From an uncultured Verrucomicrobiota bacterium (GTDB taxonomy: Bacteria; Verrucomicrobiota; Kiritimatiellia; CAIVKH01): a stretch of 64,000 nucleotides of DNA. The notes under the pieces are model-generated. The model saw nothing but the letters and a program-made list of their open reading frames with translations, searched no databases and was not told where the DNA came from. Shown here one piece after another: positions 4,840-19,830 of the stretch. Location: contig CALMYG010000006.1 of NCBI GenBank assembly GCA_937873455.1, positions 62,001 through 126,000 of the forward strand, given 5' to 3'. Made by a program: the position numbers and the translations under genes. Numbering within the stretch: position 1 is the first letter of the stretch; each line of letters begins with the position of its first letter.

Positions 4840-6933
4840 TCACCACGTTGCTTGCTTGTGCCGAAGATCATCCAGAAACTCTGAAGCTGGCGCTACGGCA
4901 CTGATCATAAGGTGGTCTCGGGCTCGGGTGCAGGCGACGTACAGCAGGTGGCGTTCGGTGTCGTAAATTTCCTGGAGGTCGGCATCGTCTCCAACTTGTT
5001 CAATGCGCTCCTGCAACGGCAACACTTCGTCGTCACAGGCCATGACGGCAACTGCGCGGAACTCCAACCCCTTAGCTAGGTGCATGGTCCCAATCGCGGC
5101 ATACCCGCTGGCGACGTCAGCGTGATCATCCAGCACCCTGCAGGGCAGGCCGGCGGCTTTGGCGGCGGCCTCGGCTCTCGGTATTTGCGCGGCCGACCGG
5201 ACAAAGATGCCGATTTCATGCGGGGTAATACCGGATGTCAGCATCTCCTTGAGCCAAGCCCCGACCCCATGGCCTTCTTCTTCCTCGGTGGTGTAGTCGC
5301 AGATTACGGGAGGCACTCCGTTAAAGACGGATACGGTATCGCTGCGCTTTTCGGTGTTCCCATCGATGTCAGCGACCTCGGGACCGAGCAGTCGGTCGGC
5401 ATGCTTACGAATTTGATGTGATGTCCGGTAATTGACCCGCAAGGTCTTGGAGCGTCCGCGCACATCCACGCCCAGCGACTTCCACGAAAAGGGAGCCTGA
5501 AAAATTCGTTGGCCAAGATCGCCGGCGAAGAACAGTGCGTTTGGTCGGTCTTCACCGAGTGCCGCCAGGAAGCGTAGCTGCGCCACGGAGATGTCTTGCG
5601 ATTCATCGATCACGGCAAAGTCAAAGGGGCGATGCTTTTGCTGACCGGTCGCCGTGGTGAGTGCGCTGAACGCACCAGACAGGGTCATCCCTCCGGACTT
5701 GTTCAGATCTTCCCTTGCATACTCAAATATTGACCACAGCACCCTCCGTTGGGTTTCCGGCAGCCGCGTCTTACGTCCGAGCCGGGCGACATCCCGATAG
5801 GCGTCCCACGTGGCGAGTTGCCATGCATCCACCACCTGATCCCATTCGGACATCAGAAAGGAAAGACTGAAGTGGTGTCCGGCTACCCGTGCCGATGCAT
5901 CCCGGATGGCGTTACGAAGCGCCTCCCGGGACATCAGCGTTATGGGTCCGATCCATGACTTGTGCAGGCGAATCGCCAAGGCCGGAAGCGAGTAGACATC
6001 AATTCGTTCGGCCAGTCTGGGTTCATTACCGATAAGTCGGCGGAGTTTGGTTTGAAGGGCGTGGGCCAAAGGGTCGGAAAATGTCGTGAGAAGAACCCGG
6101 GCTTCCGGGTGGCGGCGGGCGAGTGATACCGCACGGTGCAGGGCTACGATGGTTTTGCCGGTTCCAGCCGAACCAGCGACGCGGGCCGGCCCATTGAACT
6201 CTTTTTCGACCAATTCACGCTGCTCCGGATGCAGAAAGACAGTCCACTTGTCCCAAGGGAATTCCAACGCTTGTTGTAGCTCCTCGGCGCTGGACACAAC
6301 CTTGAACCGGCGTTGAGCATCCGGGTGATCGAACGGGTTGTCAGCGGTAGCCGTGGTTTTGACTGGCCGTGGTTTGCCCCCGGTCGCCAACTCCAACAGC
6401 GCCTCCGAGGCCTCGGCCGGCAAGTGCTCGGCTAACACCAACAAACTGTCTTCGTCGACTTTCTTAACGTTCGGGATCCATTCGGATGGAACGCCATACC
6501 CCAGCAAATCTTCGTCGGATACGCGATCGAACAACAAAGGCTTGGGGGCGGTGACCGGTTCCGCCTGCTTCTTCACGTAAACGGGCACGACGATCTCTTT
6601 GACCGTCTCCCGTATCTCAACGAATTGCGCCGCGCCGGTTTTGGGATGGGTCTCCAGCTTGCGCCGTTCCGCCCAAGCATAAGCTTTGTCGTGGTGATCC
6701 ACGTAGCAAAGAAGAAGGCTCCCGGCTGTTTTATGAACAATAATGCGGATGTCCGCGCTGACCCGCACCGACCAGAAGTTTTTGTCCTTCGCTTTGTCGA
6801 GCTTGTGGAAACTCATGCTCGGACTGGCCGGATTGATTTGGAGGTCGAAGGCGGTTTGTTTGGTCGCCTTTTGCTCGTCTGGTGTTAAGCATCCAAGGCT
6901 ATCGGTGAAGGTATCGGCGATGCGGAAGTGCAT
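4840..6933 (-). CDS. UvrD/SF1-type helicase with N-terminal RelE-like domain
   Basis: 697 residues. Residues ~35-92 resemble RelE/ParE toxins: FHKLxKAKxxNFWSVRVSxDIRIIVH, then LCYVDHHDxAYxWAERR. From ~235 on it is a UvrD-family SF1 ATPase: Walker A GSAGTGKT (254-261), Walker B DESQD (443-447), an RVNYRTS motif, GTMHLAKGLEFRAV (motif V) and YVACTRARDHL (motif VI). The fusion is recurrent in bacterial genomes; its activity is unproven. It is the last gene of the island cluster, 16 bp after its upstream neighbour, which suggests co-transcription. It may sense or process foreign nucleic acid, or the RelE-like part may be a regulatory or effector domain. Confidence 0.85.
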   Translation of the reverse strand: MHFRIADTFTDSLGCLTPDEQKATKQTAFDLQINPASPSMSFHKLDKAKDKNFWSVRVSADIRIIVHKTAGSLLLCYVDHHDKAYAWAERRKLETHPKTGAAQFVEIRETVKEIVVPVYVKKQAEPVTAPKPLLFDRVSDEDLLGYGVPSEWIPNVKKVDEDSLLVLAEHLPAEASEALLELATGGKPRPVKTTATADNPFDHPDAQRRFKVVSSAEELQQALEFPWDKWTVFLHPEQRELVEKEFNGPARVAGSAGTGKTIVALHRAVSLARRHPEARVLLTTFSDPLAHALQTKLRRLIGNEPRLAERIDVYSLPALAIRLHKSWIGPITLMSREALRNAIRDASARVAGHHFSLSFLMSEWDQVVDAWQLATWDAYRDVARLGRKTRLPETQRRVLWSIFEYAREDLNKSGGMTLSGAFSALTTATGQQKHRPFDFAVIDESQDISVAQLRFLAALGEDRPNALFFAGDLGQRIFQAPFSWKSLGVDVRGRSKTLRVNYRTSHQIRKHADRLLGPEVADIDGNTEKRSDTVSVFNGVPPVICDYTTEEEEGHGVGAWLKEMLTSGITPHEIGIFVRSAAQIPRAEAAAKAAGLPCRVLDDHADVASGYAAIGTMHLAKGLEFRAVAVMACDDEVLPLQERIEQVGDDADLQEIYDTERHLLYVACTRARDHLMISAVAPASEFLDDLRHKQATW

Positions 6934-6949
6934 GTGTTATGAGCCAACA

Positions 6950-7366
6950 CTATCGCTTAAGAATTGGTCTGCTTGCTACGCTTGCCAACTGGTTGGCCAA
7001 ATCCTTCCTCCTCGCTTTCTCTGCTTCGGGGTCAATGCCCTCCCATGGCCAATCGGAAATGACCGCATGCCGAGGTGGAGGTTCATCAGAGATTATATCA
7101 AGGCCAATTTTGCGGACCACAGAAGCCTCGATAATGACCGCCCCGTGTAAATTTCGCCCACTCTCTGCTACCACCATTTCGCCGATTGCCCAAAGTTCAT
7201 CCATTGGATCGGCGGCATGGCGCGACACAGAAGTGGTTCGATCATTCGGGTTTGGCAGAAACGCAACAGGCTTGGCTTGAATGTGGTTGTAATGCCCGCT
7301 TTGCGTTAAAAACCGCGCGAGGCTTTCGCCATCATCAACAATCTCAGGCAACCCCGACGGCAACAT
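6950..7366 (-). CDS. Conserved unknown protein of the island cluster (ORF Y)
   Basis: 138 residues if started at ATG 7366, which overlaps the preceding gene by 23 bp. A longer frame exists (to 7498) but its extra 44 residues fall within the preceding gene's coding region and look random. Visible blocks: AKPVAFLPNPxDRTTSVSRH, ELWAIGEMVVAxSGRNLHGAVII, and DEPPPRHAVISDWPW, followed by a charged helix. No signal peptide or membrane segment is seen. I do not recognise a named family. The compact, motif-rich sequence and tight coupling to ORF X and the TIGR04255 gene suggest a functional module. Confidence 0.65.
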   Translation of the reverse strand: MLPSGLPEIVDDGESLARFLTQSGHYNHIQAKPVAFLPNPNDRTTSVSRHAADPMDELWAIGEMVVAESGRNLHGAVIIEASVVRKIGLDIISDEPPPRHAVISDWPWEGIDPEAEKARRKDLANQLASVASRPILKR

Positions 7367-7880
7367 CTTGAATACCCATAACCATTTTGATGCCCTGGCA
7401 GATAGCCTCTGGAACATGGGTTCCGTTAAACCGGACCACACCGTGCGCCTTGTCCATTCCAATAAGCCATGCGTAAGCCAATCGATTCCCGTTACCAACG
7501 CTCAAGGAAAACAACTCGCCGCGACGTGCAATCCAATCCAACTCTATGGCACCATCTGGCTCAACAGCAAAATCTGGCGACGGGAGATCATCCGGAAGCG
7601 CAACAATAAAATCCCTGACAGTCCTAACCGCAACGGGGTCAGCCGGTGGCGAATCACCGCAGGCGGCGTTGTGTTCTTCAAGTATATCGTGCAAACGCGA
7701 CAACATTTCTGCCTTTCTGCCAAACAACGCATCTGAACCCTCCGCAGCCTTGACAATGGCAGACGCGCTTGAGGATGCCACAGCAGCCTCACGCGATAGC
7801 GCGGTACCAAAACGCGCATATCCATTCAGTGCGATGTAGCTAAGGCAAACTCCTAAGGTTGTCGAAATAGGTTCAGGCAT
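7344..7880 (-). CDS. Unknown protein of the island cluster (ORF X)
   Basis: 178 residues. The start at 7880 overlaps the end of the TIGR04255 gene by 28 bp, and no clear ribosome site is seen, so translation is probably coupled to it. The N-terminus is mildly hydrophobic (ISTTLGVCLSYIALNG), then a helical stretch with an HDILEEHN segment, then a beta-rich half with the block GNGNRLAYAWLIGMDKAHG and VRFNG. No catalytic motif is recognisable. It is always read here with the TIGR04255 gene upstream and ORF Y downstream. Confidence 0.65.
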   Translation of the reverse strand: MPEPISTTLGVCLSYIALNGYARFGTALSREAAVASSSASAIVKAAEGSDALFGRKAEMLSRLHDILEEHNAACGDSPPADPVAVRTVRDFIVALPDDLPSPDFAVEPDGAIELDWIARRGELFSLSVGNGNRLAYAWLIGMDKAHGVVRFNGTHVPEAICQGIKMVMGIQDVAVGVA

Positions 7881-8617
7881 GACTCGCTCAATGTTTGTTC
7901 GAACACTTCATTCTTCATGCGCCGTAATACGCGTATTCGATCTGAAATCCAAGTCCAATCAGAAGGATCGCCGCCATGGGGAGAAGATGCTGCGATGTCG
8001 AGAATGACCGGCAAAACCCCCGAAACGAACTGATTGGCTGTTAGCACGGTCGTCACTTGATTGCCTGTTTCCTTGTCTGCGGCAGAATACTGGTTCAAAA
8101 ATCCCAGCAGCGCCATCGAGTCTTCGTTGGGAAGTCGAGGTCCGATGCGGAAGTATTCGTTAAGCTCAACCTTGCCATCCTTGGCAGGCAAGGGGAGATT
8201 GTTGATGTATCTGAGCTGGATGGCGCGTACATGCAGGGGCGATGATATTTCACGGTAAATATCCCAAGTGCGTCGGATTTCTTCTAGGTAGTCATCAAGA
8301 GTTGTGTATGGCGCTAGTCGATTAAACGAATAACCACCCCGCCTGACTTGAACGATTTGCTTTTCATCGCTACTCCTAAATTGAAGAGATTGCAAATCAC
8401 GCGATGCATTCGTCAACCGTGGCTCCTCACCTTCCCGATGCTCAATTTGCTGTTGAAGCAGGAAACCGGCACGATAAATGGGGTATGAATCCCTCAGCAG
8501 TTGCTTTGACTTGGCCTCCAATTCTTTCAAATCCTGTGCCGGGGGCAGATCGCACTCAATATCCAAGACTGCTTCCACTATTGGAGGCTTATTCAGCCTA
8601 AGCTTCTTGTCATTCAT
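7853..8617 (-). CDS. TIGR04255-family protein
   Basis: 254 residues. The N-terminus (NKPPIVEAVLDIEC) and the central segment GGYSFNRLAPYTTLDDYLEEIRRTWDIY match my recollection of TIGR04255, a sporadically distributed bacterial family of unknown function. RAIQLRYINNLPLP and DRIRVLRRMKNEVFEQTL complete the family pattern. An AAGGAAG site lies 9 nt before ATG 8617, inside the 24-bp gap after mod. The family's patchy distribution and its place behind a restriction-modification methylase suggest a role in defence or in controlling it. Confidence 0.8.
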   Translation of the reverse strand: MNDKKLRLNKPPIVEAVLDIECDLPPAQDLKELEAKSKQLLRDSYPIYRAGFLLQQQIEHREGEEPRLTNASRDLQSLQFRSSDEKQIVQVRRGGYSFNRLAPYTTLDDYLEEIRRTWDIYREISSPLHVRAIQLRYINNLPLPAKDGKVELNEYFRIGPRLPNEDSMALLGFLNQYSAADKETGNQVTTVLTANQFVSGVLPVILDIAASSPHGGDPSDWTWISDRIRVLRRMKNEVFEQTLSESCLNLFRQP

Positions 8618-8641: not shown

Positions 8642-11374
8642 TCATACCCGAAACACCTTCATCACCTCATCACCCAAATGATTGATGACTTTGACGGCGA
8701 TGCGTCCGCTTTTCGGCTTTTCAAACGGCCTTGAGGTGTCGCTGTTTAGCGTGGCCCAGGCTTCGGGGTTGATTTCGGCTTTTAGGGTTGTCTTGAGTGA
8801 GCTGTAGGGGTCGTTCTGGCCGAGGAAGTAGGCGTGGCGGACGAAGAAGCTTTCTTCGTTGTAGTCGGTGTCGATGAACCAGCAGGCGATGCCGTCGGCG
8901 CCGTCACTGCGGACTTCGCCGGTGCTGGGGTCGAAAACGTCTACGCCGTTGACCTTGATGCATACCTGGTTGTGCGGTTGCGGCAGGATCACAATGTCCG
9001 GTTCGCCGAAGATTACGAAGAGGTTGCCTTTGCCGGTGCTCTTGAGTTCGTCGGCCATGTGCAGGTCGGCGTTCATGCGGGCCTTGAGGACAGGGATCCG
9101 GCCGAGTTTGTCGAACTCGCTGGCGTGGGCGTCGTAGTTGAAGGCGCAGGCGATCAGGACATCGAAGCCGGCATCGCCGGCTTCCCTGGCTGCGGCCACG
9201 AGGTCGGGGCGACTGACCGTGCCGAACTCTGGGCCGATGAGGATGGCGGCACGTTTTTCAGTATCGCCCTCACGGAAGCGTCCTTCGGCGCAGACCAGAT
9301 CGCCCGGCCACGGGGTCAATGCCGTGAAGGTGATCTTGTCCTGTTTGTGGGCTTGCTGGACGCCGGCGACCTTGAGGTTTTCGAGGATCATCTGCTCGAA
9401 GGTGTAGGTGGAGCCGAAGCCGCTGTGGGCCGACTCCTTGGCCGGATCGATCAGATCATCGTCTTCGTTTACGCTCAGCACGCGGTGCGGACTTAGACTC
9501 TCGACGGTGAAGGGTCCGGCGACGCGCACCTTCTTTTTGTCGTCGTAGGGTTTGTCGTAGAGGTATTCGTATTCCGCCTTGGCGGCGATGGAGGCGTCGA
9601 TCTCCTTCTGGCGGGCGATCCGGGCGGTCCACCAGTCGGCATGGAGTTTCTTCGCCGCATCCGACCACTTGGCGTCCGCCTCGCGGGGGATTTCCCATTC
9701 CTCCCACTTCGTTTTCAGCTCCTTGTTCAACTTCTCGCGCAGCGGTTCCAAGGTCTTCTGCCACGTGTCCCAGATCACATCGATCTCGGTATTGTTGGCG
9801 ATGGACTTCAGCGTGATGTGCGGCACCCGTTCGTACACGAAACCGTGCCGGATGTTGCCGTAGGTCGGCTTGGTCGAAGGAGCGGTGCGGGTCAGCTCAG
9901 CTTCCTTGTATTGTCCCTCCTTGCTGTCGGCCAACAGGTAATACGGATAACGCGCACCCATGATGCGCGACCGGGCCAACGCCAGTGCCACCCGCGAGGT
10001 ATCAATCGTGATCCAGCGACGTCCCCATTGTTCGGCCACATAGGCGGTGGTGCCGGACCCGCAAGTCGGGTCAAGCACGAGGTCGCCGGGATCGGTGGCC
10101 ATGAGAAGGCAGCGCTCGACGACTTTTTGTGCCGTCTGAACGACATAAACCTTGGATTCAGTGAAGCTTCCCGTTCCTGTATCCGCCCAAAAGTTATTTC
10201 TTGGAATGATCGGATAGTCGTTAAGAAACTGACGATAGCGGATCGATCCACTTACCCGCTCAATGCGGTTAGCCCGGCCAACTCGATCCATGCTGTCCTT
10301 TGTCGTTCTCCAGCCGCGTGGAAGAGGGTTGAATGTTTTTCCCTCAAACACGAAATCAAAGACCGTGGTTGGCTTTTGAGCGGTAATGTCTGAAAGGGTA
10401 AACGGGTTATCCTCTGTGCCTCTCGTATAAACTGCATCATATGAAGACCCGTCCTCTTTGGGCTTGTATAGTTGCCGATATTTTGTGCGGGAAGGGTCTT
10501 TTGCATACCACAGGAGGAAATCGGTGGTCGAAGGCAGCACCATTGTTTTCCCGGTCGGACTATTCGTGCTGCTCGATTTCGAGAATGAAATCACGGAGAG
10601 CATGTTCTCATCACCGAACACTTCATCTAGCAACGCTTGAACACGGTGGACATTTTCTGGCCCGATCTGCACAAAGATCGATCCGGAATCCGTCAATAAA
10701 TCCCGCGCCACGGTCAGGCGGTCGCGCAGATAGGTCAGGTAGCTGTGAATCCCATCGCGCCATGTATCCCGAAACGCCTTCACTTGTTCCGGTTCGCGGG
10801 TGATGTGGTCGGCTTTGCCGTCTTTCACGTCGCGGCTGGTGGTGGACCATTGGAAGTTGCTATTGAACTTAATGCCGTATGGCGGATCAAAATAGATGCA
10901 CTGCACCTTGCCCCGCAATCCTTCGCGTTCAGCCAGGGAGGCCATGACTTGCAGGGAATCGCCGAGGATCATGCGGTTCGACCAGTTCTGGTCGTGGGCG
11001 TAGAACTCGGTCTTGTCCGCTCCCTTAGGGATGCCGTTGAAGTCGGCGAAGAGGTCGAGCTGGTTTCTGGCTTCTTGTTCCTGGTTTCTGGTTTGCCGAA
11101 GCAGGTCTTCAATCAGAACCTTGGGGTGAACCTTTTCCTGGATGTAGAGCGGCGGGGCGTGGACCACCAGGTCGGACCAGTCCTGCTGATCCTTGCCGCG
11201 CCAGACCAGTTGCGGGTCGAGATCCACGTTGCGCGGGTATTTCACCGTCCGCACTTCCTGCTGGTCATGTTGCAGAACCGACTGATGCTCGGCGGTCGGG
11301 ATGTTCTTCCGTTTGGCATCCTCGTGCTTGATGGTTTCGACCGATTTGAGGCTGGTGGTTTTACGTTTGGCCAT
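8642..11374 (-). CDS. mod: Adenine-specific DNA methyltransferase, type III-like Mod
   Basis: 910 residues. Motif IV DPPY at 163-166 precedes the AdoMet-binding motif DPTCGSGTT at 435-443, the order expected of beta-class N6-adenine methyltransferases of type III systems. An N-terminal stretch names its target preparation region (LVWRGKDQQDW). The C-terminal ~400 residues lack methylase motifs and may hold target recognition or Res contacts. The start follows the NYN gene stop by 2 bp. With Res (12556-15633) it forms a restriction-modification pair, protecting host DNA by methylation; its recognition site cannot be read from sequence. Confidence 0.92.
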   Translation of the reverse strand: MAKRKTTSLKSVETIKHEDAKRKNIPTAEHQSVLQHDQQEVRTVKYPRNVDLDPQLVWRGKDQQDWSDLVVHAPPLYIQEKVHPKVLIEDLLRQTRNQEQEARNQLDLFADFNGIPKGADKTEFYAHDQNWSNRMILGDSLQVMASLAEREGLRGKVQCIYFDPPYGIKFNSNFQWSTTSRDVKDGKADHITREPEQVKAFRDTWRDGIHSYLTYLRDRLTVARDLLTDSGSIFVQIGPENVHRVQALLDEVFGDENMLSVISFSKSSSTNSPTGKTMVLPSTTDFLLWYAKDPSRTKYRQLYKPKEDGSSYDAVYTRGTEDNPFTLSDITAQKPTTVFDFVFEGKTFNPLPRGWRTTKDSMDRVGRANRIERVSGSIRYRQFLNDYPIIPRNNFWADTGTGSFTESKVYVVQTAQKVVERCLLMATDPGDLVLDPTCGSGTTAYVAEQWGRRWITIDTSRVALALARSRIMGARYPYYLLADSKEGQYKEAELTRTAPSTKPTYGNIRHGFVYERVPHITLKSIANNTEIDVIWDTWQKTLEPLREKLNKELKTKWEEWEIPREADAKWSDAAKKLHADWWTARIARQKEIDASIAAKAEYEYLYDKPYDDKKKVRVAGPFTVESLSPHRVLSVNEDDDLIDPAKESAHSGFGSTYTFEQMILENLKVAGVQQAHKQDKITFTALTPWPGDLVCAEGRFREGDTEKRAAILIGPEFGTVSRPDLVAAAREAGDAGFDVLIACAFNYDAHASEFDKLGRIPVLKARMNADLHMADELKSTGKGNLFVIFGEPDIVILPQPHNQVCIKVNGVDVFDPSTGEVRSDGADGIACWFIDTDYNEESFFVRHAYFLGQNDPYSSLKTTLKAEINPEAWATLNSDTSRPFEKPKSGRIAVKVINHLGDEVMKVFRV

Positions 11375-11376
11375 GG

Positions 11377-12240
11377 TTATTCCTCAAGCGGGTCGGATGG
11401 CGGTGTGTTTGCAAAATCATCCTGATCATCCGGCTCTGCATCGGCTGGACTGCGAAATCCGGAAACGATGCCATCCACATGCTCGTGAAGATCGTCTTTT
11501 ACCGACTGCCACATGGGATCGAGCAAAAACTCCACGCCTTCTCGACGGGCAAGTTTGGCGGCCGGAACAAAATCGCTATCGCCTGTGACGAGGACAATCG
11601 TATCCACCTGCTTTTTGAGGGTGAGCGTGGAAATATCCAACCCGATGCGCATGTCCACGCCTTTCTGGCGAAGACCGAGCCGGACATCTTGCGGGGTCAA
11701 TCCCCTCCAGGCCGCCGCGATATTCTTAAGCTGAATGGCCTCCTCTTTGGTGATCGGTTGTACAGTTGCACCACTCTCGGCTTGGGCTATGGCCGAGTCA
11801 AACACGTGCATAAAGTTCTTGGTCCGAAGAAGCTTTTTGGTGACCTGCGTGTCCTTGATGTGCCAACCATCCTCTTTCACCACATGCCCGAGGCGAAGGG
11901 CAAATTTACGTGCGCGGCGCAACTCCCGGAACAATTCATCCCGAAACAATGCCTCCGGCGTTTTGGCAAACTGTATTTGTTGATTGAGAATCGGGTGGTG
12001 AGCAACCTCGTCGAATGGACGGGCGTCATAATAAAAAAGCCGGTATACTTGGTCCAACCATCGGCTACGTGGAGAGGAAAATGGTTCGCCTGTTAACTTC
12101 TGGACATGCCGTTTGCATAACATGCGTGCAGATTTTGCCACAGCAGCAGCACTTTCGTGTTGTTCGGGGGGAACCAGTTTGGGCAGGCGCTTGAGAAAGA
12201 AGGCGCCATCAATGAGTACAGCTATGCGCCTCACACGCAT
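11377..12240 (-). CDS. NYN-domain (PIN-like) putative ribonuclease
   Basis: 287 residues from ATG 12240, chosen because GGGAGG lies about 6 nt upstream; a frame extending to 12327 is rejected. N-terminal RRIAVLIDGAFFLKRL supplies the first acidic residue of the NYN/PIN-like fold, and LVTGDSDFVPAAKLARREG supplies the paired acidic site, as in LabA/DUF88 proteins. A Lys/Arg-rich central region could bind nucleic acid. The tail is acidic (DDQDD). It lies between res and mod, an unusual place, and abuts mod by 2 bp. Family knowledge predicts metal-dependent RNA cleavage; the target is unknown. Confidence 0.88.
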   Translation of the reverse strand: MRVRRIAVLIDGAFFLKRLPKLVPPEQHESAAAVAKSARMLCKRHVQKLTGEPFSSPRSRWLDQVYRLFYYDARPFDEVAHHPILNQQIQFAKTPEALFRDELFRELRRARKFALRLGHVVKEDGWHIKDTQVTKKLLRTKNFMHVFDSAIAQAESGATVQPITKEEAIQLKNIAAAWRGLTPQDVRLGLRQKGVDMRIGLDISTLTLKKQVDTIVLVTGDSDFVPAAKLARREGVEFLLDPMWQSVKDDLHEHVDGIVSGFRSPADAEPDDQDDFANTPPSDPLEE

Positions 12241-12251
12241 GAGAACCTCCC

Positions 12252-12290
12252 TGAAAAATAAAAAAGCCCCAGGATTTCTGACCGCCCGGG
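12252..12290 (-). terminator. Possible attenuator hairpin upstream of the NYN gene
   Basis: Read on the minus strand, CCCGGG (12285-12290) can pair with CCTGGG (12268-12273) with one G-T pair, and is followed by GCTTTTTTATTTTT. It ends 12 bp before the NYN start. A terminator so close to a start codon could attenuate the operon, but the 6-bp stem with an 11-nt loop is weak. Confidence 0.35.
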
Positions 12291-12435
12291 ATATGTGGAC
12301 GGCCATACTCTCAAGGAGCGGATACATTTAATGTCACATCTTTTGATCACAAAATCAACCCTTTTCACAAGCAAAGGCTAAACTGGTAATTGATACCCGA
12401 GCATCTCCCATGGCTTGGTGGGAGCCAGAAAATGC

Positions 12436-12555: not shown

Positions 12556-15500
12556 CTACCGCCCCTCCTTAGCCAACGCCTTTTCTATGGCGTCATCGAA
12601 CGCTTCTTTCACTCGTTGCTCGAACCCGGATTCGATTTCATAGATCTCGGTTAACTCGATGAAGGCCCAGCGGCCGTAGGTTTTCAGGTTGTTCACGCCG
12701 GGCACCCAGTAGGTATCCATGGTGGCCTTCTTGTCTTTCGCGTCTTCGCGGCGATACCCTTTGATTTCCACGACCAGATGCAGCGGGTCTTCCAGACCGC
12801 GACCGTCGTCCACCATCACGATGAAGTCGGGCAGGTATTTGCGGATTTCCGACCCGTAGCGGTAAGGCACTTCGAAACCGAGGTTGTGATTTTTGGTATA
12901 GGCCAGCACCTTGGGGTGCGTTTCGGCGACCCGGCAGAATTCAGCCTCCCAGTCGCTGTCGAGGACGACCCAATTCAGGTGGTTCTTCGGGGGCGGTCCT
13001 TTGGTATCCCACCGGTCTTTGCGGGAGGTGGAGAAGCGCACATGCATGGTGGAGCCGGTGGGATTGTAGGGGTCGAGCAGGGCTTTGATGGGGCGCTGGC
13101 CTTCGAAGGCATTGGTAATGCCGGTCGTTATCCGGTTGCACGCTTGATCGGCCAACTCCTGATAAAGCAGCAGGCCGGGATACGTTCCTCCCTTGCAGAC
13201 CAGGCAGGTATCCATCCATTGCTTGGTGATGCGCTTGAGCTGACCAAACAGGTGCAACTTGGGCTCTTCGCCGGGATCACGCCACTTGGTGTACAACAGC
13301 CGGTGGGTCAGATGGAACAGGATGGTGGAGGGGCGAACATCCTGGAGGTGCTCTACGGTAAGGATCTCGGTCTTGCCAATGATACCGGCGTTTTCGTTTT
13401 TGGTGGGGCCAACCACATCCGGGGTCAATTCCATGACCGAGTCAGCGGTAAATTTGGCGGTCAATCGTTCCTCGGGCAGTTCGACGCGGTATCCTTCTAC
13501 GCGGGGGAAGCGAATTTCCAAGGAATCACGCTCCGGGCGGACGGCCTTTACTTGTACCGTTTCGATCGGGGGGCGCGGGGGAGCAATGACGGGCTTGGCG
13601 GTGAAATCAAACGGCACGCCGAAGATGTCGGCATACTCGGCGTTGAAGAGTCCGTCCTCGTTCAGATCATACGACTGGCGGCGAAGGGCGCGGCCGATCA
13701 CCTGTTCGCACAACAACTGCGTGCCAAAGGCCCGGATGCCGAGAATGTGGGTTACGTTGTTGGCGTCCCACCCTTCGGTAAGCATGGATACGGAGACCAC
13801 GCAGCGGATCGACGCGCCGAGCTGATCGGGCTTCCCGACCGTATTCATGACCTCGCGGAGCAATTCCTGATCGCTGAGGTTGTCGGCGGCGCGGGCGTCG
13901 CCAGTGCGTTCCACGACTTCTCGGCGAAACCGCTCGATTTCGTCCTCGGCCATGGCTCGGAAGCTTGAATCCAGGGCATCACCCGCCTCCAGTTGCTCGG
14001 AGTCAATCAGCAAGGTATTCGGGCGAGGCAAGGGAAGTCCGGTTGATTCGTCATAATTACGGAACAGGGGAAGTCGTCCGTTTTCGAGAACGGAGGTGCC
14101 ATCATCGTTCTTGCGGAAAAAACCGGACACGAAATCGAAAACGAGTTTTGATATGGCGGTGTTCTGGCAAACGATAATAAAGCAAGGCGGGACCTTGATT
14201 CCGCTTTCTTCCCAGAGGCGGAAGGTCTTTTCGTAGTGTCCGTAGAGCGATTGGATGGCGGTTTGAAGCAGGGCGGGCAGTTTGAGCGGGTCGAGATCGC
14301 CGGCCACCCGGCGGCCGGCCATGGGCAATCGCGGCTGGGCTTTTTTGAGGTTCTCCCACAGATCGCGGTAGATCGGCATTTCATCGCCGGGAATGTTCTG
14401 GGCCACCGGGACGCGGGGAAGTTTTACGATACCGCATTCAATCGCGTCCATGAGGGAAAAGTCGCTCATGGTCCACGGGAACAGCGTTCCTTCAGCATAG
14501 CCCGAACCGCGCAGGAAAAAGGGGGTGGCGGAGAGGTCAACGACACGGTTGAGGCCGATTTTCTCATTCACGGCCTCCAGCCCCGAAATCCAAAGCCGGG
14601 CGGCTTCGTTATTCTTTTCCGCCTCTTTGCGTTCATCGCCCTTCAAGTCTTCATCTTCTTCCGCTTCGGCGGGCTTCTCGCGGTAGCAGTGGTGCGATTC
14701 ATCGTTGAGGACCATGATGTTCTTCAGGCCCATCAAGTCGGGCATGACACGCTGGATCATCTGGCCGGCGTTTTCCGTGGTATTCAGCTCCTCACCCACT
14801 CGGCCCTTGAGCAACGCCCGGCCGCCGGCGGACAACTCGATGCGCTCGCGCAGTTTGAACGCATGGAAGTTGGTAATCACGATTTTGGCCCGTTTGATTT
14901 CATCGAGCATGTCGTGGGGTACCAGCTCGCGGCTCGCGTAGTAACTGTCGGGATCGTTGGGCTGGAGCACGCGGAGGCGGTCTTTGATGGTCAGGCCGGG
15001 AGCCACGACGAGAAAACCTCGGGTGAAGTTTTTACTGCCGGGGCGCCGCACGGCATTGATGGTTTGCCAGGCGATGAGCATGGCCATCACGGTAGTCTTG
15101 CCCGCTCCGGTAGCCAATTTGAGGGCCACACGCTCCAGTTTCGGGTTGGCATCGCGGTTGGCGGCGGCGAGATGCTCCAGCAGGCGTTTGCCGGGTTGGA
15201 GGTGCGGAGCGACCTCGGTCAGCCAGATGATGGTTTCAATCGCTTCGACTTGGCAGAAGAAGGGTCGAACGCCACTGAACGCGTGATGCCGCCAGTGCTG
15301 TAACAGGCGAGAGGTTTCGGGGGTGACCTGCCATTGGCTAACCGGGAGATCGCGCCATGTGTCTACGTGCTGCCGGACTTCGTTGATGATGGATGTAACG
15401 TCATACTGCTGTTTGGCGGTCGAGAGGCCCTTGCCCTCGTCAAATACCATCTCTTCCTGCTTAGCCGATGCCCGCCTCTTCTTGGGTTTTGGAATGGGGG

Positions 15501-15633
15501 TGATAAATTCGGCCCGACGGCGGGTATCAATAATTTGCTGGGTTGGCTGACCCGACGGGTCCAACTCCCAATGGCGTCGCGGGTACTCGTAGGGCGAGTT
15601 GAGTATGGGTTGATCAAAAAATGGATTGGTCAT
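12556..15633 (-). CDS. res: Type III-like restriction endonuclease Res (DEAD/SF2 helicase plus nuclease)
   Basis: 1,025 residues from ATG 15633; the frame is open for 31 more codons and the ribosome site is weak, so the start is uncertain, but MTNPFFDxPILNSPYEYPxxHWEL is a typical opening of this Res family. SF2 helicase: Walker A ATGAGKT (~174-180), Walker B NDESHH, and SMLTEGWDxxNVTHILGIRAFGTQLLCEQVIGRALRR (motifs V-VI). The C-terminal YLPDFIV...LVVEIKGY fits a PD-(D/E)xK nuclease site. It should translocate or scan DNA and cut unmodified sites together with Mod. A terminator lies downstream. Confidence 0.92.
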   Translation of the reverse strand: MTNPFFDQPILNSPYEYPRRHWELDPSGQPTQQIIDTRRRAEFITPIPKPKKRRASAKQEEMVFDEGKGLSTAKQQYDVTSIINEVRQHVDTWRDLPVSQWQVTPETSRLLQHWRHHAFSGVRPFFCQVEAIETIIWLTEVAPHLQPGKRLLEHLAAANRDANPKLERVALKLATGAGKTTVMAMLIAWQTINAVRRPGSKNFTRGFLVVAPGLTIKDRLRVLQPNDPDSYYASRELVPHDMLDEIKRAKIVITNFHAFKLRERIELSAGGRALLKGRVGEELNTTENAGQMIQRVMPDLMGLKNIMVLNDESHHCYREKPAEAEEDEDLKGDERKEAEKNNEAARLWISGLEAVNEKIGLNRVVDLSATPFFLRGSGYAEGTLFPWTMSDFSLMDAIECGIVKLPRVPVAQNIPGDEMPIYRDLWENLKKAQPRLPMAGRRVAGDLDPLKLPALLQTAIQSLYGHYEKTFRLWEESGIKVPPCFIIVCQNTAISKLVFDFVSGFFRKNDDGTSVLENGRLPLFRNYDESTGLPLPRPNTLLIDSEQLEAGDALDSSFRAMAEDEIERFRREVVERTGDARAADNLSDQELLREVMNTVGKPDQLGASIRCVVSVSMLTEGWDANNVTHILGIRAFGTQLLCEQVIGRALRRQSYDLNEDGLFNAEYADIFGVPFDFTAKPVIAPPRPPIETVQVKAVRPERDSLEIRFPRVEGYRVELPEERLTAKFTADSVMELTPDVVGPTKNENAGIIGKTEILTVEHLQDVRPSTILFHLTHRLLYTKWRDPGEEPKLHLFGQLKRITKQWMDTCLVCKGGTYPGLLLYQELADQACNRITTGITNAFEGQRPIKALLDPYNPTGSTMHVRFSTSRKDRWDTKGPPPKNHLNWVVLDSDWEAEFCRVAETHPKVLAYTKNHNLGFEVPYRYGSEIRKYLPDFIVMVDDGRGLEDPLHLVVEIKGYRREDAKDKKATMDTYWVPGVNNLKTYGRWAFIELTEIYEIESGFEQRVKEAFDDAIEKALAKEGR

Positions 15634-15823
15634 AACGCCATTGATGTAATTTGTTGTATGACAAGGCTCAAAACAACAACCGCCGTACCAGTCGCGAAGA
15701 CTAGTCAAACGGGTCAATTCTAGCAAGCGCGCAAAATCCGATTCGGAGCTTTTTCATGAATTTAACTTGGCGAACAGGGGGGTTCCCGTTATAAACCCCG
15801 CCTTTTCAGGAAGGATCAGGACC

Positions 15824-18669: not shown

Positions 18670-19830
18670 ATGAGCCGTTCATGTTCAGGTCGTTATGAGG
18701 TAACCCGCGTTGGCGGGGAGGAGGTCCGCGCTTTTATACCGGATGCTTTGCCCCCATCGCCGCCCATCGATCTTTCGGGACCACGCCTGGCCTTGTTGGA
18801 GAGGGCCGTCCTTTCGATCGGACGCCTGGACAGTGTGGCGACCTTGCTTCCTGATCCGGGTTTATTTCTTTACGCCTATGTTCGGCGGGAAGCCGTGCTT
18901 TCCTCCCAGATCGAAGGCACGCAGTCCTCGCTGTCCGACCTCCTGCTGTTCGAGCTCGAAGAAGCGCCCGGCGTACCGTTCAATGATGTGGTTGAAGTGT
19001 CCAATTATGTCGCCGCCTTGGAACATGGGGTCATGCGCTTGCGGGGGGGGGTTCCCTTGTGCTGTCGCCTCCTCCACGAGATGCATGAGCAGTTGATGCA
19101 ACGAGGCCGTGGCAGCGCCAAGGAGCCGGGTCAATTCCGGAGCAGCCAGAATTGGATCGGCGGCACCCGGCCCGGAAATGCCCATTTCGTGCCGCCCCCG
19201 CCGGGACACGTTTCGGCGTGCATGGCGGAACTGGAGCGCTTTCTGAATGAAGAAAATACCGGGCTTCCACATCTCATCCGCGTCGCCCTCGCGCACGTCC
19301 AGTTTGAGACGATCCATCCATTTCTCGACGGTAACGGACGCCTCGGGCGTTTGCTGATTGCCCTGCTGCTTCATCGGGACGGCCTCCTGACCCAACCCCT
19401 GCTTTACCTGAGCCTGTATCTCAAGCAACACCGGAAGTTGTATTACGAGCTGCTTGACGGCGTTCGCGCGGATGCCCATTGGGGGGCGTGGGTGGATTTC
19501 TTTCTCGAAGGCGTCGAACAGACCGCTCAAGGCGCGGTGCAAACGGCCGGGCGGTTGGTGGCCTTGTTTGAGGAAGACACCCGCCGCATCCACGCCACCG
19601 GTCGCACGGCATCAACCACCCGGCACGCGCTCGACGCCTTGCGGCGGCGGCCGGTCATCAACCTCAAGCAACTCTGCACGGACGCCGGCATGACGTTCCC
19701 CTCGGCCTCCAAAGCCATGGGCCGACTCATCGACGCCGGTATCGCCCGCGAACTCACCGGACAACGCCGCAACCGCGTCTTTGTGTACGACGCCTATATC
19801 GCCATCCTCAACGAAGGCGGCGAACCCTGA
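18670..19830 (+). CDS. fic: Fic-family protein (AMP-transferase type, class II)
   Basis: 386 residues. The Fic active-site motif HPFLDGNGRLGR is at about residue 217. An N-terminal inhibitory helix motif of the form [S/T]xxxE[G/N] is visible (SSQIEG, ~77-82), placing it in the self-inhibited class II group. GNAHFVPPPP forms the target-clamping flap region. The C-terminal ~80 residues look like a winged helix (INLKQLCTDAGMTFPSASKAMGRL). Such proteins usually transfer AMP to a protein target, often controlling growth or acting as toxins. It is flanked on both sides by near-identical 56-bp repeats (copies 1 and 2), hinting at a cassette. Confidence 0.92.
   Translation: MSRSCSGRYEVTRVGGEEVRAFIPDALPPSPPIDLSGPRLALLERAVLSIGRLDSVATLLPDPGLFLYAYVRREAVLSSQIEGTQSSLSDLLLFELEEAPGVPFNDVVEVSNYVAALEHGVMRLRGGVPLCCRLLHEMHEQLMQRGRGSAKEPGQFRSSQNWIGGTRPGNAHFVPPPPGHVSACMAELERFLNEENTGLPHLIRVALAHVQFETIHPFLDGNGRLGRLLIALLLHRDGLLTQPLLYLSLYLKQHRKLYYELLDGVRADAHWGAWVDFFLEGVEQTAQGAVQTAGRLVALFEEDTRRIHATGRTASTTRHALDALRRRPVINLKQLCTDAGMTFPSASKAMGRLIDAGIARELTGQRRNRVFVYDAYIAILNEGGEP

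Follow-up and report, generated by a model that had tools for sequence, protein, structure and literature searches.

A TIGR04255-family protein with exchangeable partner genes: a possible toxin–antitoxin-type module carried in a type III-like restriction–modification operon

Do three small overlapping genes located inside a restriction–modification (R–M) operon belong to this operon, or do they represent a unit of their own, and what could such a unit do? This question was raised by a 64,000-nucleotide stretch of DNA from an uncultured Verrucomicrobiota bacterium, hereafter referred to as the window.

The gene trio and its recurrence

All three genes are encoded on the minus strand. These are T (7853..8617; 254 aa), a TIGR04255-family gene and the first gene of the trio; X (7344..7880; 178 aa), a distant relative of the C-terminal domain of PDC-M32A and presumed to play an antitoxin-like role; and Y (6950..7366; 138 aa), a distant relative of PDC-M32B and the putative effector. 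The three reading frames and their successive overlaps (28 bp for T/X and 23 bp for X/Y) agreed with the initial annotation, and the conserved-looking blocks quoted there were all located, GNGNRLAYAWLIG within X and both SRHAADPMDELWAIGEMVVA and DEPPPRHAVISDWPW within Y. The assignment of T to TIGR04255 was also sustained, with a score of 108.2 bits versus a curated cut-off of 30 over positions 1-251 of 252. No Pfam match to T was obtained at E 1. The mechanical ORF of Y begins upstream, with a TTG at 7498, but homologues align from the ATG at 7366, which is therefore the preferable start.

Four aligned T proteins served as the query for scanning ~85,000 species genomes, with no condition placed on X or Y. 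This T-only scan revealed 76 loci. In 61 of them, T is followed on its own strand by X and then Y, as judged by iterated X and Y HMMs with a threshold of E < 1e-8 for each of the three proteins. Several of the other 15 loci are cut by a contig end or divergent (L044, L052, L085, L092, L093, L098, and L104). When used alone, the Y profile matched 3 of 195 genomes of the window's phylum, each time at a T-X-Y locus. X and Y are therefore not restricted to the window and do recur together with T, and the suggestion that the three genes form a module, which the initial annotation had tied to co-occurrence in TIGR04255 neighbourhoods, is borne out. The 70 trio loci considered below comprise these 61 loci, two loci from viral contigs, the window, and locally fetched loci; a few genomes are present in both collections. 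At these loci, the X domain starts no more than a few tens of bases from where T ends, with Y overlapping or almost touching X. The arrangement seen in the window is not a matter of chance, because the gene order of the trio, with overlapping or nearly overlapping genes, is repeated across all 70 loci.

The hosts of T-X-Y, represented mostly by metagenome-assembled genomes, span at least 12 phyla. These include Verrucomicrobiota, Pseudomonadota, Thermodesulfobacteriota, Nitrospirota, Planctomycetota, Bacteroidota, Methylomirabilota, Hydrogenedentota, Spirochaetota, Kiritimatiellota, Lentisphaerota, Acidobacteriota, and Gemmatimonadota, and the phyla are intermixed on the T tree. The distribution of TIGR04255 is sporadic, as the initial annotation had stated: 12 of 289 genomes of the window's phylum, 30 of 398 Pseudomonadota, and 12 of 247 Bacteroidota were positive. 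The trio was already visible in several of the 12 positive genomes of the window's phylum, and a genome from the same genus as the window (G038) contained neither T nor Y. T-X-Y is a genuine travelling unit, apparently self-contained and spread horizontally.

X and Y diverge too rapidly for single-sequence queries, which returned nothing from plasmids, viral contigs, and genome contigs. When diverse Y sequences were aligned instead, the alignment proved too variable for a genome scan and gave no matches in viral contigs. No T was found in phage records, and plasmids yielded two T relatives only, neither of them with X-Y by HMM. In the mobilizable plasmid of the cultured cyanobacterium Crinalium epipsammum (NC_019754.1; L226, 4001-5831), a TIGR04255 gene precedes two hypothetical genes that overlap or adjoin each other and are not X-Y by HMM. 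Two trio copies are apparently decaying or sequencing-damaged: one carries an in-frame stop within T (L060, 6872-7741), and the other has T and Y each split across two frames (L083, 6971-8668).

The host operon and its variable slots

In the window, the trio occupies the slot between two genes of the same strand. The upstream border is formed by the gene for Mod, a type III-like DNA methyltransferase (8642..11374; 910 aa; PADLOC MTase_III, 1419 bits), and the downstream border by that for a UvrD-like helicase (4840..6933; 697 aa; Pfam UvrD_C and UvrD-helicase). Further upstream are genes for an NYN-domain protein (11377..12327, minus strand; 316 aa; Pfam NYN, 3.6e-10), which lies outside the trio in the slot between Res and Mod, and for Res, a restriction endonuclease of the BPTD_3080 family (12556..15726, minus strand; NF046055, 1348 bits versus a cut-off of 800). 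Accordingly, both components of a type III-like R–M system, the Mod methyltransferase and the Res helicase-endonuclease, are present. The NYN gene has no homologue in other trio loci at E 1e-10. As judged from translations, the island has apparent ribosomal protein genes on one side (about 2.9-3.75 kb) and an EF-P gene on the other (15.77 kb). A Fic-like motif, HPFLDGNGRLGR, was noticed in a 386-aa protein encoded a few kb from the island (window positions 18670-19830). Also, an N-terminal stretch of the UvrD-like helicase resembles toxins of the RelE/HigB type (E 0.012 with Pfam HigB-like_toxin, below the cut-off), a feature kept in its relatives.

A Mod of the window type is located directly upstream of the trio in 24 of the 70 loci and a UvrD of the window type directly downstream in 21; Res was identified within the available flank in 15 (the window is included in each count). 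A UvrD-based search was positive for 16 of 329 Pseudomonadota and 11 of 269 genomes of the window's phylum. Reading upstream in 24 UvrD operons revealed T, X, Y, or M32 in none; the window and one other locus (L050) do carry such genes. In operons with both Mod and UvrD, the contents of the gap between them are diverse. They include an AAA_16/STAND-like ATPase (L201), AAA_15/SMC-type ATPases (L208 and L218), an HTH and Peptidase_M78 protein (L216), a Schlafen AlbA_2 protein (L224), and other genes elsewhere; the gap is empty in L203, L207, L212, and L222. In L217, a nucleotidyltransferase protein is encoded upstream of UvrD, and the contig ends before any Mod. The gap between Res and Mod is a second variable site, with a PIN gene in L207 and the NYN gene in the window. 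The R–M context of the trio switches at least six times across well-supported branches of a quick T tree and 15 times by parsimony. The variable gap contents and these context switches identify T-X-Y as exchangeable cargo and not as a core part of the R–M operon. The proposed insertion inside a restriction operon is thereby supported, since the Mod–UvrD gap is variable and the majority of T-X-Y copies occur away from operons of this kind.

The Res-x-Mod-y-UvrD operon looks like a cargo-carrying R–M scaffold, whose slots x and y hold unrelated and often conflict-type genes in its relatives. The same arrangement, Res-Mod-T-X-Y-UvrD, is present on a 55.5-kb IMG/VR contig classed as viral (L115); this contig could represent a provirus or an island, or it could be misclassed. 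A fixed fourth component of the trio was considered and rejected, as no dominant Pfam family occurs near the trio loci that lack the R–M operon. Our literature search found no paper on embedded R–M cargo of this kind or on a T-like third component. A type III-like R–M operon with exchangeable conflict-type cargo between Mod and UvrD is a place to seek further systems.

Genes behind T and the relatives of X and Y

The genes behind T were read in a census of 57 TIGR04255 loci (15 from the window's phylum, 30 from Pseudomonadota, and 12 from Bacteroidota). T was the first gene in all 57. The T-X-Y arrangement was present in 32, of which 25 were recognized by HMM or close reading and 7 by motif only; in L014, X was seen and Y was not. 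In 14 of the 57 loci, a second type of third-position gene, with a '[QN][ST]CDL'-like motif, follows an HTH or small protein. Third genes of this kind were noted in L004, L006, L007, L133, L134, L136, L137, L141, L143, L145, L149, L158, L161, L094, and L100; those in L134 and L136 had no Pfam match. Seven loci encode members of known RNase-toxin families in the third position, namely MazF (L135, L162, and L163), HEPN (L002, L151, and L159), and PIN (L013), and four display other or ambiguous architectures. Pfam supports PIN (2.8e-11), PemK/MazF (1.1e-18), and HTH_3 (3.4e-5), and the HEPN match (5.4e-4; 20.5 bits) is below the cut-off of 22; the remaining toxin and motif assignments were made by eye. 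Behind the module, a DUF1156-type DNA methylase is encoded in L094 and L135. Additionally, T is followed in L096 (2445-2879) and L097 (1395-1856) by 'YNCIAWAAGD ... PTHAARQL' proteins, which have the look of cysteine peptidases and are possible effectors.

Thus, X-Y is exchanged for known toxins behind T. The presence of RNase toxins suggests that the place of Y is usually taken by an effector gene, with the middle gene coding for its partner. We found no paper naming TIGR04255 and no proposed role for it. The census offers this family a testable one, that of a constant component in three-gene modules, the last gene of which belongs, in several genomes, to an established RNase toxin family.

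The initial annotation could name no family for X and Y. Indeed, neither protein has any match in Pfam or NCBIfam, but both are distant kin to PDC-M32A/B, a candidate pair for phage defence in PADLOC. In the PADLOC scan the similarities were below the significance threshold, with E 0.071 for X versus PDC-M32A (positions 281-342 of 375) and E 0.034 for Y versus PDC-M32B. The M32A model matched X proteins from other T-X-Y loci at 1e-6 (G129), 4e-5 (L010), and 0.0025 (L009). Profile–profile comparison by hhalign linked X to the C-terminal domain of M32A (prob 80, E 1.3e-5), at the level of remote homology only, and Y to M32B (prob 91.5, E 8.6e-7). By these profile comparisons, X and Y qualify as distant relatives of the M32A C-terminal domain and M32B, respectively. 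In a bridging locus (L052), T is followed by an M32A-type X, an M32B-like protein, and UvrD. Given this locus and the kinship of the two pairs, T and X together correspond to M32A with a different first half. T itself is not a relative of the M32A N-terminal domain (hhalign prob 0.1).

The two systems share the order of the M32A C-terminal domain/M32B and X/Y and the adjacency of these genes. They differ in that M32A has a fused N-terminal domain, whereas X is a stand-alone protein of 178 aa with a separate T gene in the position of that domain, and in that X and Y of the window remain below PADLOC significance with the PDC-M32 models. In L016 and L017, PDC-M32A/B pairs adjoin type I methyltransferase genes, as read from translations. 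PDC-M32 is named in one paper as a PADLOC hit without function; the present comparison gives it a wider family and a modular logic, with an exchangeable first part and a common pair behind.

Confident AlphaFold2 models were obtained for T (62 rows; pLDDT 95.2, pTM 0.89) and Y (61 rows; pLDDT 93.6, pTM 0.87). Nine residues are invariant in the 62 rows of T: E15, D19, Y104, W118, R136, N139, D207, R232, and F239. The best matches in a fold search with T were TBP and YwmB (prob 0.94-0.97, E 0.008-0.017, low TM-score), none of them significant, and SecB was absent from the 50 best. The model is consistent with, and no proof of, a fold of two beta-alpha-beta(4)-alpha units. A sequence search of solved structures gave noise only; 9hnh, considered as a structural relative of T, was dismissed, since only two short stretches were aligned (i-Evalue 0.5 and 1.1).

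In the main Y family, R18 and S46 are each conserved in 60 of 61 rows and H100 in all 61; R49 is conserved as well. Nearly all members of a divergent Y set retain the Arg of the first strand, the Ser of the second strand, and the His of the last strand. The best PDB fold match of Y was KptA (E 0.2, TM 0.37-0.43; not significant), and AvrPphF ORF2, which we take to have an ADP-ribosyltransferase-like fold, ranked seventh. Such a fold is only hinted at for Y by these model-based matches. Y was not recognized as KptA by sequence (hhalign prob 0.1 versus one KptA sequence, a weak test with a single template), and it had no significant match in a viral fold library.

A toxin–antitoxin-type reading and its alternatives

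T-X-Y may be a three-gene conflict module of the toxin–antitoxin type, carried in the window as cargo between Mod and UvrD; among the readings considered, this one is the most likely, although we regard it as about evenly poised between right and wrong. Conflict as the function, the trigger, and the chemistry of Y are inferred by us, and the roles of the three proteins are deduced from the position and company of their genes. T, the shared component that pairs with many downstream couples, would serve as the sensor and would also hold the second protein or stabilise it. X, of the M32A C-terminal type, would be the antitoxin-like partner restraining Y, the effector of the M32B type. If T were removed or X destabilised, either by infection or because the resident restriction system is lost, Y would be freed and growth would stop. 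In favour of this reading are the recurrence of the trio (61 of 76 T loci), the known toxins in the third position behind T, the kinship with PDC-M32A/B and its bridging locus, the variable Mod–UvrD slot, the mixing of phyla and the changes of R–M context on the T tree, the Arg-Ser-His set retained by distant Y proteins, and the mechanistic precedent of CmdTAC, described below. Against it speak the lack of a SecB match for T, the non-significant resemblance of Y to KptA, the census architectures assigned by motif or by eye, and the missing W-D-G motif in X of the window.

The closest working parallel is CmdTAC: when its third protein detects a capsid protein of a phage, degradation of the antitoxin follows and an ADP-ribosyltransferase toxin is set free (PMC11618068). 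Dependence on a third protein is transferable between unrelated toxin–antitoxin pairs (PMC5105189). A short hydrophobic N-terminal segment in X and several other middle proteins behind T is a weak hint at such dependence. The trio resembles TAC systems in its three-protein logic, in the use of one common component for unrelated toxin–antitoxin pairs, and in the known toxins behind T. Unlike in TAC systems, where the shared component comes last, T comes first and the gene order is reversed. TAC systems employ a SecB-like chaperone, whereas T is not SecB-like by Pfam or by its best fold matches; the module may therefore work like a TAC system without being a member of the TAC family. Another parallel is PrrC, which the linked EcoprrI R–M enzyme keeps silent and an anti-restriction factor of a phage activates (PMC2610378). 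Here, too, a conflict gene is carried within an R–M cassette, but the R–M system is of type I in place of type III-like, and no sequence relation was seen. The module in the window could likewise serve as a back-up to restriction, as PrrC does for EcoprrI.

A broader proposal, which we put forward tentatively and hold to be slightly less probable, is that TIGR04255 marks a large undescribed class of tripartite, toxin–antitoxin-like defence systems. These would combine a non-SecB, possibly TBP-like, sensor or stabiliser with exchangeable antitoxin–effector pairs (MazF, PIN, HEPN, X-Y, and '[QN][ST]CDL'-like). Y would then represent a new family of small Arg-Ser-His effectors, and PDC-M32 the same pair under a different sensor domain.

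Alternatively, the trio could be an R–M accessory, which binds Mod, Res, or UvrD and tunes or protects the R–M complex with no toxicity of its own. The neighbouring Mod (24/70) and UvrD (21/70) and the type I methyltransferase genes beside the PDC-M32A/B pairs of L016 and L017 fit this explanation. We consider it rather unlikely, given that about two-thirds of the trio loci lack the R–M operon and have no dominant family among their neighbours, that the Mod–UvrD slot is elsewhere empty or filled by unrelated genes, and that T pairs elsewhere with MazF, HEPN, and PIN. This last observation also bears on the improbable case that T is the effector, kept in check by downstream pairs acting as exchangeable sensors or regulators: the third gene belongs to a known RNase-toxin family, that is, an effector, in seven loci, and T matches no enzyme fold, its best weak matches being TBP and YwmB. 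In defence systems, it is often the sensor that varies. The variable downstream pairs would suit that role, T is the constant part of the modules, and several of its nine invariant residues are polar or charged.

A slightly smaller probability still is given to a conserved operon that serves the cell in a way unconnected with conflict, as might be expected from three families without assigned function and from the many trio copies standing alone among ordinary genes. The sporadic distribution (12/289, 30/398, and 12/247 genomes), the lack of both T and Y in the genome of the same genus (G038), the mixing of phyla on the T tree, and the R–M, DUF1156-methylase, and toxin neighbours all argue against such a role.

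The copy of T-X-Y in the window may be a divergent or weakened form, since its X is devoid of the W-D-G motif kept in nearly all other X proteins. The motif is likewise missing from its relative in L127.
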